Source: Candidatus Sumerlaeota bacterium
GTDB taxonomy: Bacteria; Sumerlaeota; Sumerlaeia; SLMS01
Reading direction: 5' to 3'
Length of the DNA: 43,481 nucleotides
Assembly (NCBI GenBank): GCA_007133495.1
Contig: SLMS01000120.1
Coordinates: 1-43,481 of the forward strand
The translations under genes and the position numbers were made by a program. This document shows positions 17,615 to 24,394 of the stretch, piece by piece. The notes beneath the pieces were generated by a model. It had not been told where the DNA came from and made no database searches. It saw nothing but the letters and a program-made list of their open reading frames with translations. Positions within the stretch are counted from its first letter, which is position 1. Each line of letters opens with the position of its first letter.

Positions 17615-19642
17615 TCAGCAGCCCGCGCCCTGCCCCCAGTGTTCGAGCAGGTTGACGAAATCGTCGAACCCGAGCGGCTCACCGTCGATCTCCTCGCCCC
17701 AGTGCTCGAGCAGGAAGACGAAATCGTCGAAGCTGGTGCATCCGGTGCCAGTGAAATCGCCCACAGCGCGGTCGTCGGGGTGAATCTCATACTCCGGCCC
17801 ATACTGCCACGTATCGGAAAGCCGTGTGCCCTCCGCCGACCCGCCGAAGAGCAGCACACGGCCGCGTGTCCCGTCGAAAGCCATCGCCGGATTAATGAGT
17901 GTCGCGGGGCGCGTGAAGGACGTCTCGATATCATTCCACTGCGAACCGTCCCACTCCCATGTTTTCGGATCCTCTTCCAGACCTCCGGCCATGACCACCC
18001 GCTCGCGCAGGGGGTCGTAGGCCATTGCGTGTGCGCTCCGCCCGTCTGGTCCGGTGGAAGCGGCCGGGTGCCATTGAACACCGTCCCACTCCCAGGTATC
18101 CACAAGTGACTCGAACGACCCGCCGAGTTGCCCAAAGCCCCCGAAAAGCACCACCCGCTCGCGGGCACCATCCCATGCCATGGCGTGACCGCTGCGGGGG
18201 ATGGGGCCGCCGGTGGCCGCCTGGTTCCACTCGGTTCCGTCCCAGACCCACGTGTCGCCGAGGCGCGTGCTGCCGTCATTTCCGCCGAAGAGCACCACCT
18301 GCTGGCGGACGCTGTCATACGCCATGGCATGGTTGTTCCGCGGGGAGGGACCGATCGCATTCTTAATCGTCCACTCGTTGCCGTCCCATTCCCAAGTGTC
18401 ACCGGCCCTGCCAGCCAACGTGAAGCCGCCGAAGAGCACCGTGCGCTCGCGGTCGTTATGGTATGCCATGGCGTGGCCTGTGCGGGAAGGTGGCCCGCCG
18501 GCAGACGCTGCCGGATGCCATGCCTCCCCGTCCCACTCCCACGTGTCGCCGAGGTTGCTCTGGAAGTCGAACCCTCCGAAACCTCCGTAGAGGACCACGC
18601 GTTCGCGGGCGCTGTCCCAGACCATTTCGTGGAATTCCCGGGGCGGAGGAATCTCCGGGAACACCTCCTCCCAATCGGTGCCGTCCCATGCCCATTTGTC
18701 GTCCGAGATGTCCTCCTCGCCGCTTCCGGCGAAGAGGAGGACTTGCTCGCGCGCCTCGTCGTACACCATGTTGTGCCATCTGCGCGCGGCGGGTCCCTGC
18801 TCGCTGGTTTTCGTCCAGCTTGTTCCATCGTATTCCCAGGTATCAGCGAGGCGCTCCGAGCCGTCCCAGCCGCCGAAGAGCACCACTCGTTCACGCTCGC
18901 TGTCGTACGCCAGGCCAAAACCGCTGCGCGCCTCGGGGCCGATGGCTATTACCTGTTCCCATTGTACGCCGTCCCACTCCCATACCTCATCCGACCAACC
19001 GGTGGAGTCTGCGCCTCCGAAGAGCACCACACGCTGGCGGGCACTGTCGTAGGTCATGGAAAAATCGGTGCGGCCGGAGGGACCTTCCACGTCCATCTCC
19101 TCCCACTGCGTGCCGTCCCACTCCCACGTGTCGTCAAGACGAGTGAGTGAGCCGTCTTCCCGCGTGCTGCCGCCGAAGAGGACAGTGCGCTCGCGCGCCT
19201 CGTCGTAGGCCATGGCGTGCGCGTTGCGCGGAGGGGGTCCGCCGGACGCGGCCTGCCCCCACCCCGTTCCGTCCCACTCCCACGTGTCGCCGGCTTGCTC
19301 GCCCCCCAGCATGCCGCCGAAAAGGACCACGCGGCCGCGGGCGCTGTCGAACACCATCTGGGAACTGGAACGTTGGCCTGGGCCGCCGATGGCAACGCGC
19401 TCCCAGCGCGTCCCGTCCCACTCCCAAGTCTGGCCGCCGGCCCCCGAGCCGCCGAAAAGCACCACGCGTTCGCGGGTAGTGTCATAAGCCATCGAATGGT
19501 TCCAGCGGGCCGAGGGAATGACCTCAATCCCCTGCCAGACAAGGTCCGGCTCCTCGTTTGTTCCGGCTGAAGTGCTGGCTCCGTTGCCGAGACCCAACAT
19601 GAGTAAAATCAACGAACAAAAGGCGATGCGTGGCTTGCCCAT
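17615..19642 (-). CDS. Secreted kelch-type repeat protein with C-terminal dockerin-like module
   Basis: 675 aa; start MGKPRIAFCSLILLMLGLGNGAST; about 11 WEWDG-type repeats; C-term GDFTGTGCTSFDDFVFLLEHWGEEIDGEPLGFDDFVNLLEHWGQGAGC. Confidence 0.88.
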   Translation of the reverse strand: MGKPRIAFCSLILLMLGLGNGASTSAGTNEEPDLVWQGIEVIPSARWNHSMAYDTTRERVVLFGGSGAGGQTWEWDGTRWERVAIGGPGQRSSSQMVFDSARGRVVLFGGMLGGEQAGDTWEWDGTGWGQAASGGPPPRNAHAMAYDEARERTVLFGGSTREDGSLTRLDDTWEWDGTQWEEMDVEGPSGRTDFSMTYDSARQRVVLFGGADSTGWSDEVWEWDGVQWEQVIAIGPEARSGFGLAYDSERERVVLFGGWDGSERLADTWEYDGTSWTKTSEQGPAARRWHNMVYDEAREQVLLFAGSGEEDISDDKWAWDGTDWEEVFPEIPPPREFHEMVWDSARERVVLYGGFGGFDFQSNLGDTWEWDGEAWHPAASAGGPPSRTGHAMAYHNDRERTVLFGGFTLAGRAGDTWEWDGNEWTIKNAIGPSPRNNHAMAYDSVRQQVVLFGGNDGSTRLGDTWVWDGTEWNQAATGGPIPRSGHAMAWDGARERVVLFGGFGQLGGSFESLVDTWEWDGVQWHPAASTGPDGRSAHAMAYDPLRERVVMAGGLEEDPKTWEWDGSQWNDIETSFTRPATLINPAMAFDGTRGRVLLFGGSAEGTRLSDTWQYGPEYEIHPDDRAVGDFTGTGCTSFDDFVFLLEHWGEEIDGEPLGFDDFVNLLEHWGQGAGC

Positions 19643-19775: not shown

Positions 19776-22064
19776 TCAGCGGTGGTGTTGCTCGAACAGG
19801 TCCGGCTGGCCGGGCCGGCGGGTGGTGGCAGAGGAGCGCCGTGGTTTTTTCCGTGGCGGCGGGTCCGTCTCGTCGAGTGTCACTCCCGCGGGCCAGAGCA
19901 CCGTGTTCGCGGCGCGGCGGAGCAGGCGTATATACGCGCGGGGGTCTGGAGAGGTGTCCGCGTCCGCCAGCGCCGTCAATCGCACGCGGCGCGAGCGGTC
20001 CCGGTCTCCAGCGGACGTCAGGATATACGAGAGCGTTTCCCCGGCGTGGAGGTTCAGGCCCGCCTGGGCGGCCTGGCGGGCGGCAAGAGACTGCGCGCCG
20101 TGTCCCGTGTAGTCCTCTGGGTCCTGGGAGAGCGATTGCCGGATGACGAGCTGCTCCATCGGCACCTCGCCCTCGCGGAGCTGGCGTTCCCACTCCTCTA
20201 TTTTCGCGAGGAAGTCCGGCACCATTGTGCGGTATCCCGCCGCGTCCGGCGCCGTGGCGGCGTGCTCCAGCAGGGCAAGCTGCGCCGATTTAATATAGAC
20301 GGGATAGTCGCTCCGCCGGCACTCGATGCCGCGGTACTTGAGCGTGCCGTCCCGGAAGGCGCCGAAATAGCGCGTCGGCACGGGCCGGTCCGGCACCTGG
20401 CGCGAGGGCAGGAAGGCGAGCCATTTGTAGATACCCTCCAGTGCGATCGGCAGGTCCGTTTCGCTGGCGATTTCCTCACTCAGTGCGGGAATCTCCTCCT
20501 CCCGGAAATCCGGCTTCACGATCCACACGCAGTCCACGTTGGAGTGAAGCATGTGCCAGCCGCGTGCCTCGCAGATTTCGCGCGTCCGGAGGATCATTTC
20601 GCGCGACCAGGCGGAGACCGCCTCGTGGGCCTCGATGCGGCCGAAGCGTGCGTTGCGGTAGCCGAGATAGCCAAAGCAGCAGACGAGCATCCACTTGAGC
20701 GCGTCCTGCCGGGCGTGGAAGCGGCCGTAGGCGCCCTTGTCGCCTGTGCGGGCCGCCTCCGCACGGAGCGCCTTGTAGTGCACCCGCTTTTCAATGATGG
20801 GCCGGAGGGCGCGCGAGACGAGTCCCGCCCGCCGCTCGCAAATCGTATAGCCGATTTCCGGCACGCGTTCGTTCCGGCAGCACGGACAGTTCACCGTCTC
20901 GGGCGAGACGTTGAACCGCGACATGATGCTCGGGTACATGGCGACGAAGTCCAGCTCCACCACGTTCTCGTAAAAGCCCGTCTCCGGCGCATAGACAAGA
21001 CCGCCGCGGTCGGACTTGAGCAGTTGGCGGGCGCTCTTCCATGCCTCCGGGGCGGTTTTCTTCCATGGAATCAGGATGCCCTCGCGCCAGGCCATGCCGA
21101 GCTGGATGGAGGAAATACCCGTGCCGATGCTGCGGCGGGCGATGCGCTGGACGGGAATGCGCGCCAGCCGCGCCACCTCGAAAAGCCCCTCCATTCCATC
21201 GTGCGCCAGCGTGAAGGAATTCTTCCGGTCGAGATGCCAGCGTCCGAAAAGCGGATACTCCGGCGCCTGATAGAGAATCCGCCCGTAGGAGAAGAAGGAC
21301 CGCCCGTCCGTTCTCACTTCTCGCGGCTGCGGCAGCGGGTCGCGGTCCGGGCGGAAGGGGAACTTCGTGCGCTCCGCCAGCGCGAAAAGCACCGGGAAGA
21401 GGAACGAATCGCCGCCGCTGGTCAGGATGACGTCCGGGTCCAGCTCGTCGAGTGCGCGCTGGAGTCCGCCGAGCATCTCGCCTGGCTCGTCCCAGGTCAC
21501 CGTGCGGCCCTCGTGTGCAAGGGTCAGCGACCGCAGGCGCGGCCGGCTGCCAAGAAGCGACCCCTCACCGGACAGCTCCGCCGTGCGGAGTGGCGGCGCG
21601 GCGTAGTCCACCGCCCAGCGGCCGTCCTCCGGCGCGAGCGAGAGCAGCCGGCCGGCCTCGTGCTCCACCCGGCAGCGCATGAGCGGATAGACGTCGCGCT
21701 CGAAGCAGTAGCACTGCTCCGGCAGCAGGTCCGCATTGTACCATGCCACGCGGGGGAAGCGCTCCGCATGGCGGGGGAGGGTGCGGGTCCAGCTTTCCGC
21801 GCGGAGCACTCGTATAGACGCAACGGGGCGGGGCCGGCCGGTCCAGAAATCGGTCCGCTCCGTCCAGCCCTCCGGTGCTGCATCGCCCCGGCGCCCGAGT
21901 TCGCGCAGGCAGGCCGCGGCATCCTCCGCCGGGCCGCCGAGGAAGGCGCGTGGCTCGAACGGGTCCACGAGACGCAGCCGCCCGCCCCCTTCCTCCGCGA
22001 ACCACAGCACCATCTCATTCCCGCGGGCGTATAGATCAAACAGCCAGCCGGTGGTGGTACTCAC
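19776..22064 (-). CDS. Divergent family B DNA polymerase, PolB2-like
   Basis: 762 aa, GTG start; motif A LDFVAMYPSIMSRFNVSPETV, motif B LKWMLVCCFGYLGYRNARFGRIE, motif C region LHSNVDCVWIVK; GTGA overlap with upstream small ORF. Confidence 0.85.
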   Translation of the reverse strand: MSTTTGWLFDLYARGNEMVLWFAEEGGGRLRLVDPFEPRAFLGGPAEDAAACLRELGRRGDAAPEGWTERTDFWTGRPRPVASIRVLRAESWTRTLPRHAERFPRVAWYNADLLPEQCYCFERDVYPLMRCRVEHEAGRLLSLAPEDGRWAVDYAAPPLRTAELSGEGSLLGSRPRLRSLTLAHEGRTVTWDEPGEMLGGLQRALDELDPDVILTSGGDSFLFPVLFALAERTKFPFRPDRDPLPQPREVRTDGRSFFSYGRILYQAPEYPLFGRWHLDRKNSFTLAHDGMEGLFEVARLARIPVQRIARRSIGTGISSIQLGMAWREGILIPWKKTAPEAWKSARQLLKSDRGGLVYAPETGFYENVVELDFVAMYPSIMSRFNVSPETVNCPCCRNERVPEIGYTICERRAGLVSRALRPIIEKRVHYKALRAEAARTGDKGAYGRFHARQDALKWMLVCCFGYLGYRNARFGRIEAHEAVSAWSREMILRTREICEARGWHMLHSNVDCVWIVKPDFREEEIPALSEEIASETDLPIALEGIYKWLAFLPSRQVPDRPVPTRYFGAFRDGTLKYRGIECRRSDYPVYIKSAQLALLEHAATAPDAAGYRTMVPDFLAKIEEWERQLREGEVPMEQLVIRQSLSQDPEDYTGHGAQSLAARQAAQAGLNLHAGETLSYILTSAGDRDRSRRVRLTALADADTSPDPRAYIRLLRRAANTVLWPAGVTLDETDPPPRKKPRRSSATTRRPGQPDLFEQHHR

Positions 22065-22336
22065 GGCGGCCGGTCCCCGTCCGCGGCGCGCAGCTCCTCC
22101 ACCTCGCTGCGCAGGCGCTCCAGTTCAAGCTCCTGCTCAAGGAGGATCGCCATCAGCACCGCATCGAATGGAATCGGGCGGGCTGCGTTCGCCGCCTCGG
22201 CCGTGTGCCGGCGCGCCTTGGTGAACAGGCGGTCGAAGGCCGTCTTCTGCTCCGCCCTCAGCGCCCGGCGGAAGGGCCTCCAGGAGTCGATCTCCTCCTG
22301 CAAGAAGGTGTTGAATGTCGGTACTGTCCGTCCCAT
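22061..22336 (-). CDS. Small conserved-looking protein encoded with PolB2 (resembles DUF8156-type proteins from memory)
   Basis: 91 aa MGRTVPTFNTFLQEEIDSWRPFRRALRAEQKTAFDRLFTKARRHTAEAANAARPIPFDAVLMAILLEQELELERLRSEVEEL; stop overlaps polB GTG start by 4 nt. Confidence 0.75.
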   Translation of the reverse strand: MGRTVPTFNTFLQEEIDSWRPFRRALRAEQKTAFDRLFTKARRHTAEAANAARPIPFDAVLMAILLEQELELERLRSEVEELRAADGDRPP

Positions 22337-22940
22337 TGCCGTATCCTTCGATGGTGAACTCGCCCTTGGCGGTGCCCGGGCGGACCGCACTCCGTACCGT
22401 GCCGAACTCCAGCATCGGTCTCCAGAAGCGCTCGCGCGGCGGAGGGCGCTCGTAGGTCACGAGCAGCCGCGTGTCGGTGCGCTCCAGCCCCCGCAGCCGT
22501 GCCATCACTGCCGCCAGCACCCGCCCGCGCTCGGCGGCGCGCAACGTCTCCTCGCGGAAAAGGTGGTCCAGCCCGAGCATCGCCACGACCGGCCCACTCG
22601 CCTCCCCGCCGCGCGGGGGGAGCATTTCCTCCACGACGGCCTGTAGCTGGTGGATCGTGAACGTCCGCGTCACGAAAACGCGGTCCAGGATACGCTCACC
22701 GGAAAGCCCGCGCACGCGGGCCGCCTGGCTGAAGGCGTAGGGGTCGAAGACGTTCGCCCCGTCCACGCAGTAAAGCTCGCGCTCGTGGAGGAACGCCCGC
22801 GCCAGCCCGCCAAGCACCGCCGAGGCCGCCCGGCGCGGCATTTCGAGCGACAGGGAGCTTCCCGCTGGCGGGGCGCTGGTGGCGGCGTCGCGGAGGCTGC
22901 TTGGCCGTTGGGGGAGAGGATGTGGGCTCGCGCTGCTCAT
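22137..22940 (-). CDS. RecA/RadA-fold-like protein without a visible Walker A motif
   Basis: YCVDGANVFDPYAFSQAARVRGLSGERILDRVFVTRTFTIHQLQAVVEEML...GPVVAMLGLDHLFREE...LLVTYERPP; RecA-like core pattern. The segment after EGYGN overlaps the next gene out of frame. Confidence 0.65.
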   Translation of the reverse strand: MSSASPHPLPQRPSSLRDAATSAPPAGSSLSLEMPRRAASAVLGGLARAFLHERELYCVDGANVFDPYAFSQAARVRGLSGERILDRVFVTRTFTIHQLQAVVEEMLPPRGGEASGPVVAMLGLDHLFREETLRAAERGRVLAAVMARLRGLERTDTRLLVTYERPPPRERFWRPMLEFGTVRSAVRPGTAKGEFTIEGYGNGTDSTDIQHLLAGGDRLLEALPPGAEGGAEDGLRPPVHQGAPAHGRGGERSPPDSIRCGADGDPP

Positions 22941-23048
22941 GGGCGAAATAAAAGCGAAACAAGCCGCGCGTGTCAACAGCATATCCCACATTCCGCCGCC
23001 CAAGCCAGGGCGTTTCCGTTCTCGACTATCCCCATCCCCTGGTTCGAT

Positions 23049-23170
23049 GGCCACAGACTTTGGTGTTATCCGCAGATTCCGCAGATTCTCACAGATTCAG
23101 CCTCCCTTGGCACACGGCACCAGGCATCAACCCCCATCGGCGTGAATCGGTGAAATCGGCGGATGATTCC
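23049..23170. repeat. Dispersed intergenic repeat-like sequence (ATCCGCAGATTCCGCAGATTCTCACAGATT ... GTGAATCGGTGAAATCGGCGGATGATTCC)
   Basis: Sequence type recognised from memory as a recurrent intergenic element in environmental bacterial genomes; internal CGCAGATTC iterations. Confidence 0.5.
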
Positions 23171-23314
23171 CTACGGCCGCAGCCCACCACGTGGTCGAGC
23201 AGCGGAACGAAAGCCCCCCGCCCTCCGGGCAGAAAATCAATCGGTGCCCTTGACTTACGTCCGCCCCCGCGGTCTCTGGGCGCGACACTGCGACGCGAGC
23301 CTCTCTCCACCAAC

Positions 23315-24394
23315 ATGAGTCACCCTCCCTCCTGGATACCCGAAGCCGAGCGGCAGAGTGGCAATCTTGTCTATTACACCGGCGATGACCTGCGGTTTGT
23401 CTGGGGAAATGCGCTCTTCGACCGGTTCGCCGCGGAAAACGGCGCGGAGGGAATGGGAGAGGCGCTGCGTGGGCGGGTGCTGACCGATGGCTTCTCGGGA
23501 AGTCATCGCTGCCGTTGGCAGGCCATCTACGCGAAGATACTCTCCGGCACGCTTGCCTCCTACTGCGAACGGTTCGCCTGTCCCTCTCCGCGTGTCCGCC
23601 GGGAGCTGTTCATGCAGGTGGAACCGGTCTGGCACGAAGGGAAGCGGTATCTCCGGCACGAGACGATTCCGATTTCGGAGAAGCCGGGCCGGAGCGGCGA
23701 AAAGACATCAGTGAGGACGCAGGACGGCCGCAGCGATGGGATCGAGTTCTCCGGCTTTCTCCGTTCGCTGAAGCCGGAATCGGGAGACGCCTATTGGACG
23801 AGGGCGCTGGAGGATGGCCGGACGGCACTGCTCGTAGCCGACGCGATGGGCTCGGGTCCGGCCGCTGCGCGTGCAACCGAGTGCCTGCTGGACGTGCTCG
23901 CCTCCCTGCCTCTCGTGGACCTGCAGCAAGCCGTCACCACCGCAAACCGCGAGTTCATGAACCGCATGGGGGGAATTCCCGGGGAGACACCCTTCGTGAC
24001 CGGAATCCTCATGACAGTGGATCCACCGGCGACGCGGCTGGACGTGGTCTGCTTCGGTCACCATGGGCTGATCTTCACCCCCGGCGGGCCGGTCGAGGTA
24101 AGTGGCGGCCTGCCGATCGGCGTCCTGGAGGACAACGAGGAGTGGGCTCCGGCCAGGCTGGAGTTGGGCACACTGGGCCTGCGCGGACTCGCCTATACCG
24201 ATGGCATCGTCGAGCAGTTCGACTCCTCCGGCATGATGTACGGCACGCAGAGCCTGGAGCAGAATTTCCACCTCACTGCCCGCCTTCCGCTCTCTCAAAC
24301 CCTCTCTGCCCTTGTCCTCAGCCTCGACGACTGGCGCGGCGATGCCATGATCAAGGATGACCAGACGCTTCTCGGCTTTGAGCTGTTGTCCTGA
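23315..24394 (+). CDS. PP2C/SpoIIE-type serine phosphatase with N-terminal PAS-like region
   Basis: 359 aa from MSHPPSW; ESGDAYWTRALEDGRTALLVADAMGSGPAAARAT, FGHHGLIFTPGG, YTDGIVEQFDSSGMMYG, IKDDQTLLGFEL. Confidence 0.82.
   Translation: MSHPPSWIPEAERQSGNLVYYTGDDLRFVWGNALFDRFAAENGAEGMGEALRGRVLTDGFSGSHRCRWQAIYAKILSGTLASYCERFACPSPRVRRELFMQVEPVWHEGKRYLRHETIPISEKPGRSGEKTSVRTQDGRSDGIEFSGFLRSLKPESGDAYWTRALEDGRTALLVADAMGSGPAAARATECLLDVLASLPLVDLQQAVTTANREFMNRMGGIPGETPFVTGILMTVDPPATRLDVVCFGHHGLIFTPGGPVEVSGGLPIGVLEDNEEWAPARLELGTLGLRGLAYTDGIVEQFDSSGMMYGTQSLEQNFHLTARLPLSQTLSALVLSLDDWRGDAMIKDDQTLLGFELLS

Follow-up and report, generated by a model that had tools for sequence, protein, structure and literature searches.

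In 2014 the iRadA, PPB2 and PolB2 genes were linked as an operon that occurs in archaea and in certain bacteria, some of which have lexA within the predicted operon as well (PMC4104785), and in 2025 the three products were modelled as a 1:3:1 complex of PolB2, PPB2 and iRadA, the PolB2 mutasome (PMC11791011). In that model the N-terminal MGRT arm, the hallmark of PPB2, contacts both PolB2 and iRadA; the order iRadA-PPB2-PolB2 is the only one reported for bacteria, clamp motifs occur on either PolB2 or iRadA, more often on iRadA, and fusions of iRadA and PPB2 are described, the word overlap not being used (PMC11791011). Dpo2 of Sulfolobus, an archaeal PolB2 whose motif C is substituted and which lacks proofreading, actively extends mismatches (PMC8764526); no experimental study of a bacterial PolB2 was found in the literature. 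The published comparison for the PolB2 mutasome is the Pol V mutasome of E. coli (UmuC, UmuD'2 and RecA), with which the present locus shares a multi-part translesion complex, a RecA-superfamily partner and SOS control (the complex and its control being predicted here), whereas Pol V has a Y-family polymerase and an active RecA, and UmuD' is not known to be related to PPB2. ImuA-ImuB-DnaE2 systems likewise combine a RecA-superfamily adaptor that lacks an ATP site with an error-prone polymerase in an SOS operon.

The window, the whole stretch of 43,481 nucleotides of Candidatus Sumerlaeota DNA that was analysed, contains a genuine operon of three genes that encode a predicted damage-tolerant complex for DNA copying, a kind already described in archaea and bacteria. 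The three overlapping minus-strand ORFs listed in a first-pass annotation, and the GTGA common to the PPB2 stop and the PolB2 GTG start, were confirmed (Table 1), and the genes are adjacent and co-oriented in the order iRadA-PPB2-PolB2, which is also that of an Ignavibacteriae locus and of every Sumerlaeota locus whose upstream region is intact. As judged from sequence, the locus is a member of the PolB2 mutasome, with every defining feature that was tested present: the gene set and order, the MGRT arm, the D(K/R) motif, the losses in motif C and the exonuclease, and a RadA-like partner without an ATP site. The annotation had regarded the cassette as an under-described system, a view superseded by the two earlier descriptions (PMC4104785, PMC11791011), though the Sumerlaeota are not named in the main text of the latter; the locus confirms that this archaeal-type translesion complex has reached a deep, uncultured and little-studied bacterial phylum. 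The new elements, all of them computational predictions, are an SOS box, a clamp-like motif on PolB2, an out-of-frame iRadA/PPB2 overlap of 200 nt and copies in Leptospira LE1 phages. The first three set the locus apart from the published mutasome, in which the clamp motif is more often on iRadA; here lexA is not beside the operon but on another contig, with a candidate LexA box at the operon promoter instead. The locus is very probably an operon under LexA control that encodes a bacterial PolB2 mutasome, which would act as a translesion extender.

Table 1. Features of the iRadA-PPB2-PolB2 locus, in window coordinates
Feature	Position	Strand	Basis
Predicted -35 element TTGACA, 17 nt before the -10	22971..22976	-	conserved upstream block
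Candidate LexA/SOS box TTCGC-TTTTAT-TTCGC, over the -10	22943..22958	-	same repeat upstream of lexA and recA
Predicted -10 element TTTTAT, ending 7 nt before ATG	22953-22948	-	conserved upstream block
iRadA, inactive RadA/Rad51-like, 267 aa	22137..22940	-	profile against PDB, AF2, Foldseek
Out-of-frame 200-nt overlap, iRadA tail codons with PPB2 codons 1-66	22137..22336	-	ORF coordinates
PPB2 (arCOG07300 family), small helical partner, 91 aa, start MGRTVPTFN	22061..22336	-	13-sequence alignment, AF2
PolB2 (bacterial group G2) DNA polymerase, 762 aa, GTG start	19776..22064	-	Pfam PF00136, motifs
Degenerate ExoI region LTLAHEG, acidic D-I-E pair gone	21507..21527	-	inspection against family-B ExoI, manual placement
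D(K/R) motif region HLDRKNS	21216..21236	-	alignment; role as PPB2 contact from PMC11791011
Motif A DFVAMYPS, intact	20928..20951	-	alignment
Motif C as NVDCVW, Asn for first Asp of DxD	20523..20540	-	aligned to DTD of P. abyssi Pol
Beta-clamp-binding-like motif QPDLF, C-terminal	19794..19808	-	read by eye

The first gene product, iRadA, is an inactive RadA/Rad51 homologue with a RecA-superfamily fold. Single-sequence searches gave a weak match to RadA (E 0.0088), and a profile of 11 members matched RadA in the PDB at E 9.4e-10, its matches being to RadA/Rad51 and DMC1, with no bacterial RecA among them. The AF2 model, with a confidently folded core at approximately residues 29-200 and a tail (201-267, pLDDT<50) predicted to be disordered, aligned by Foldseek to RadA/Rad51 structures (E 8.8e-11, probability 1.00), the best 50 matches all being of RadA/Rad51/DMC1 types, and the best Pfam family among the members was Rad51. 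The fold is present without the N-terminal domain and the ATPase residues: the Walker A loop (GxxxxGKT) is absent from all 11 aligned members, the alignment with RadA begins downstream of the Walker A position, and LGLDHLF in the Walker B region is aligned with VDSLTSHF. The RecA-superfamily partner without a nucleotide site that had been proposed from the letters alone is thus borne out by the Foldseek comparison and the missing Walker A, as is the small accessory gene in the same operon, identified as PPB2. The 91-aa PPB2 ORF is a real gene, since its relatives keep the MGRT start and P6 among 14 invariant columns across 13 aligned sequences; its AF2 model is all-helical.

PolB2 matches Pfam PF00136 (DNA_pol_B; E 2.3e-27) and solved archaeal B-family polymerases (E 1.4e-43), and shares 32% identity, across 95% of the query, with a Haloarcula polymerase whose gene adjoins an MGRT-bearing PPB2 gene. 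Identities run from 38 to 87% with bacterial relatives, which are mostly Candidatus Sumerlaeota/Sumerlaeia MAGs (56-87%) followed by Hinthialibacteria, Ignavibacteria and Coatesbacteria (38-44%), and from 30 to 34% with haloarchaeal homologues. Motif A and the last motif-C Asp are conserved among the relatives, the first motif-C Asp is missing in them as in the window, and some have other residues after the D of D(K/R). The ExoII Asp of the window polymerase is kept although the ExoI acids are lost, and these losses, the NVD of motif C and the Pfam match uphold the original call of a PolB2-like polymerase. Because the first motif-C Asp is missing, activity is attributed to PolB2 by analogy with Sulfolobus Dpo2, likewise a B-family polymerase that does not proofread and whose motif C is substituted (PMC8764526); Dpo2 differs in being archaeal and working with PCNA-type clamps, and its activity has been shown, whereas that of the window PolB2 is presumed. 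The protein ends in QPDLFEQHHR, and a Q-x-x-hydrophobic-hydrophobic motif was read by eye in most Sumerlaeota PolB2, with QMDLF, QPDLF, QLDFL, QMDFL, QLSFL and QLTLW at the equivalent C-terminal place in relatives and, in one locus (L005), QLDML on PolB2 together with QEELPLFG at the end of iRadA.

The long overlap between iRadA and PPB2 appears to be constrained mainly by the latter. Within the overlap, 11 of the 16 differences between the window and its closest relative (L002) fall on PPB2 third positions, and residues change at 15/65 positions in the iRadA frame and at 3/66 in PPB2, so that the long iRadA tail looks like tolerated read-through. The tail is poorly conserved, and among relatives the position of the iRadA stop varies, the extremes being a site upstream of PPB2 and one 200 nt within that gene. 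A functional tail in the overlap is disfavoured by the third-position differences and the predicted disorder. For one pair of loci (L003/L004), the changes are fewer within the overlap (5/102) than after it (33/141), and some constraint is therefore possible there.

In most of the Sumerlaeota loci iRadA is preceded by a conserved block, TTGACA-N17/18-(TTTCGCTTTTATTTCGCC)-ATG, which in the window ends 7 nt upstream of the ATG at 22940 and so supports that start; from the same spacing of the -10 element, the operon mRNA is probably leaderless. A direct repeat, TTCGC-N6-TTCGC, with a period of 11 nt is located on the -10 element, and its position (22958-22943) is that of the single strict box match in the window. 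The consensus of the direct-repeat box at the iRadA, lexA and some recA promoters is TTCRC-N6-TTCGY. Strict boxes occur in seven of the 11 iRadA upstream regions and are missing from the other four (mononucleotide shuffles: mean 0.008, max 1), in 16/24 lexA upstream regions (shuffle mean 0.022) and in 3/18 recA upstream regions (shuffle mean 0.010), counts that overstate independence because the genomes are related. The direct repeat follows TTGAC at the lexA promoters of all 11 genomes examined in the two nearest families and is also found at lexA in several more distant genomes, as well as upstream of recA in three (G000, G001 and G005). This recurrence suggests that the TTCRC-N6-TTCGY repeat is a candidate LexA box, to which LexA would bind, and ties PolB2 to the SOS response through promoter sequence and not only gene neighbourhood. 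A genome pattern search allowing two mismatches returned eight matches against three in a reversed control, with no obvious repair gene among them besides iRadA and recA, and the upstream stretch of dinB that was read contained no box. Within Sumerlaeota (L024, L026 and relatives) the box is a lineage-wide candidate at the promoters of lexA and, in some cases, of recA; a limited literature search, which does not prove absence, surfaced no paper on LexA in this phylum.

Co-occurrence of the three genes among relatives is near-strict, in agreement with their proposal as a coupled cassette. Searches of 61 genomes detected 12 with PolB2, 13 with PPB2 and 12 with iRadA, and the genome sets are identical except for G005, which has PolB2 and PPB2 fragments on contig ends and no iRadA found, and G027, in which iRadA is truncated where its contig begins and PolB2 was not found. 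Within the two nearest families the majority of genomes have the operon, and the Ignavibacteriae locus (L009), outside the Sumerlaeota, has all three genes. Other arrangements were seen further afield: in a Coatesbacteria locus (L010 2322-8070) a DUF5131-like gene directly precedes PPB2 at the place of iRadA, and PPB2 is followed by a regulator resembling AlbA, then PolB2, then a DUF72-like gene (the partners of PPB2 and PolB2 being assigned by eye), and in Hinthialibacteria OLB16 and an Ignavibacteria MAG (L008 and L011) PolB2 has no adjacent iRadA or PPB2. Two Leptospira LE1 phages (L101 4198-7454, KF114879.1; L102 4207-7259, KF114878.1) carry, in this order, genes resembling iRadA (profile E 4e-17 and 1e-13), MGRT-bearing PPB2 (E 1e-14 and 3e-16) and PolB2; in both phages the PPB2 gene is annotated with too late a start. 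These copies suggest a route by which the module may move between bacteria.

The most likely role of the products is that of an SOS-induced translesion extender complex, and the earlier suggestion of a damage-tolerance module is probably right. Upon DNA damage, RecA would be activated and LexA released from the promoter box (TTCGC-N6-TTCGC); translation of the near-leaderless transcript would yield iRadA, PPB2 and PolB2 and would be coupled via the two overlaps. The proteins would assemble as in the published model, from one PolB2, one iRadA and three PPB2, with iRadA docking on PolB2 like a RadA protomer unable to use ATP and the MGRT arm of PPB2 inserted between the two, next to the DNA. PolB2, lacking proofreading, may then extend mismatched or lesion-ended primers, and its C-terminal QPDLF may tether it to the beta clamp. 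A more far-reaching version is tentative and on balance doubtful: that in Sumerlaeota the whole mutasome is a core SOS-regulon operon with a leaderless promoter and a lineage-specific LexA box (TTCRC-N6-TTCGY), that translational coupling through the long out-of-frame overlap fixes the ratios of the subunits, and that the clamp tether sits on PolB2 and not on iRadA.

Alternative explanations were weighed against this SOS-induced extender. The first-pass annotation had likened the cassette to an ImuA-type adaptor module, and the functional analogy with ImuA-ImuB-DnaE2 stands, as in either case a RecA-superfamily protein devoid of an ATP site is encoded next to an error-prone polymerase, together with a candidate LexA box. 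It is scarcely credible, however, that the locus is such a mutasome with its polymerase swapped for PolB2 and with a true, bacterial RecA-derived ImuA as its first gene: an ImuA identity of the 22137-22940 product was rejected on profile, Pfam and fold, which place it with RadA/Rad51 types and return neither RecA nor ImuA among the best matches, so the idea holds as analogy only. The polymerase is of family B, the small protein is PPB2, and the sole Y-family gene found in the genome is DinB-like; ImuB and DnaE2 were not found, an absence that is provisional in a genome of 344 contigs and 88.7% completeness.

A catalytically dead PolB2, within a complex that is structural or regulatory at stalled forks, would fit the loss of the first motif-C Asp and of ExoI and was the original reading in 2008 (PMC2527604), but is unlikely given the conserved motif A and last motif-C Asp and the active extension by Dpo2 despite its own substituted motif C (PMC8764526). 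Still less probable is an operon belonging to a mobile element or phage and serving replication of the element instead of host repair; the Leptospira phage copies and the patchy distribution (12/61 genomes searched) are in keeping with it, whereas the operon's presence in the majority of genomes from the two nearest families, the candidate host-type LexA box, a viral_contigs search that found no relative, and neighbours that are not typical phage genes argue for a host function.

Those neighbours are a 675-aa Kelch-repeat beta-propeller protein downstream of PolB2 (17615-19642, minus strand), whose C-terminal repeat 'FDDFVxLLEHWG' resembles a dockerin-like domain (by eye), and a SpoIIE-type phosphatase with a possible PAS domain divergent from the operon (22970-24394, plus strand), whose true start is probably near 23315. 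Elsewhere in the assembly (L106 1525-4812, minus strand, G000:C196) lies a second DnaE homologue of 1095 aa, degenerate, with a degenerate PHP start and no recognisable DxDxD active site, which is not beside ImuA or ImuB.
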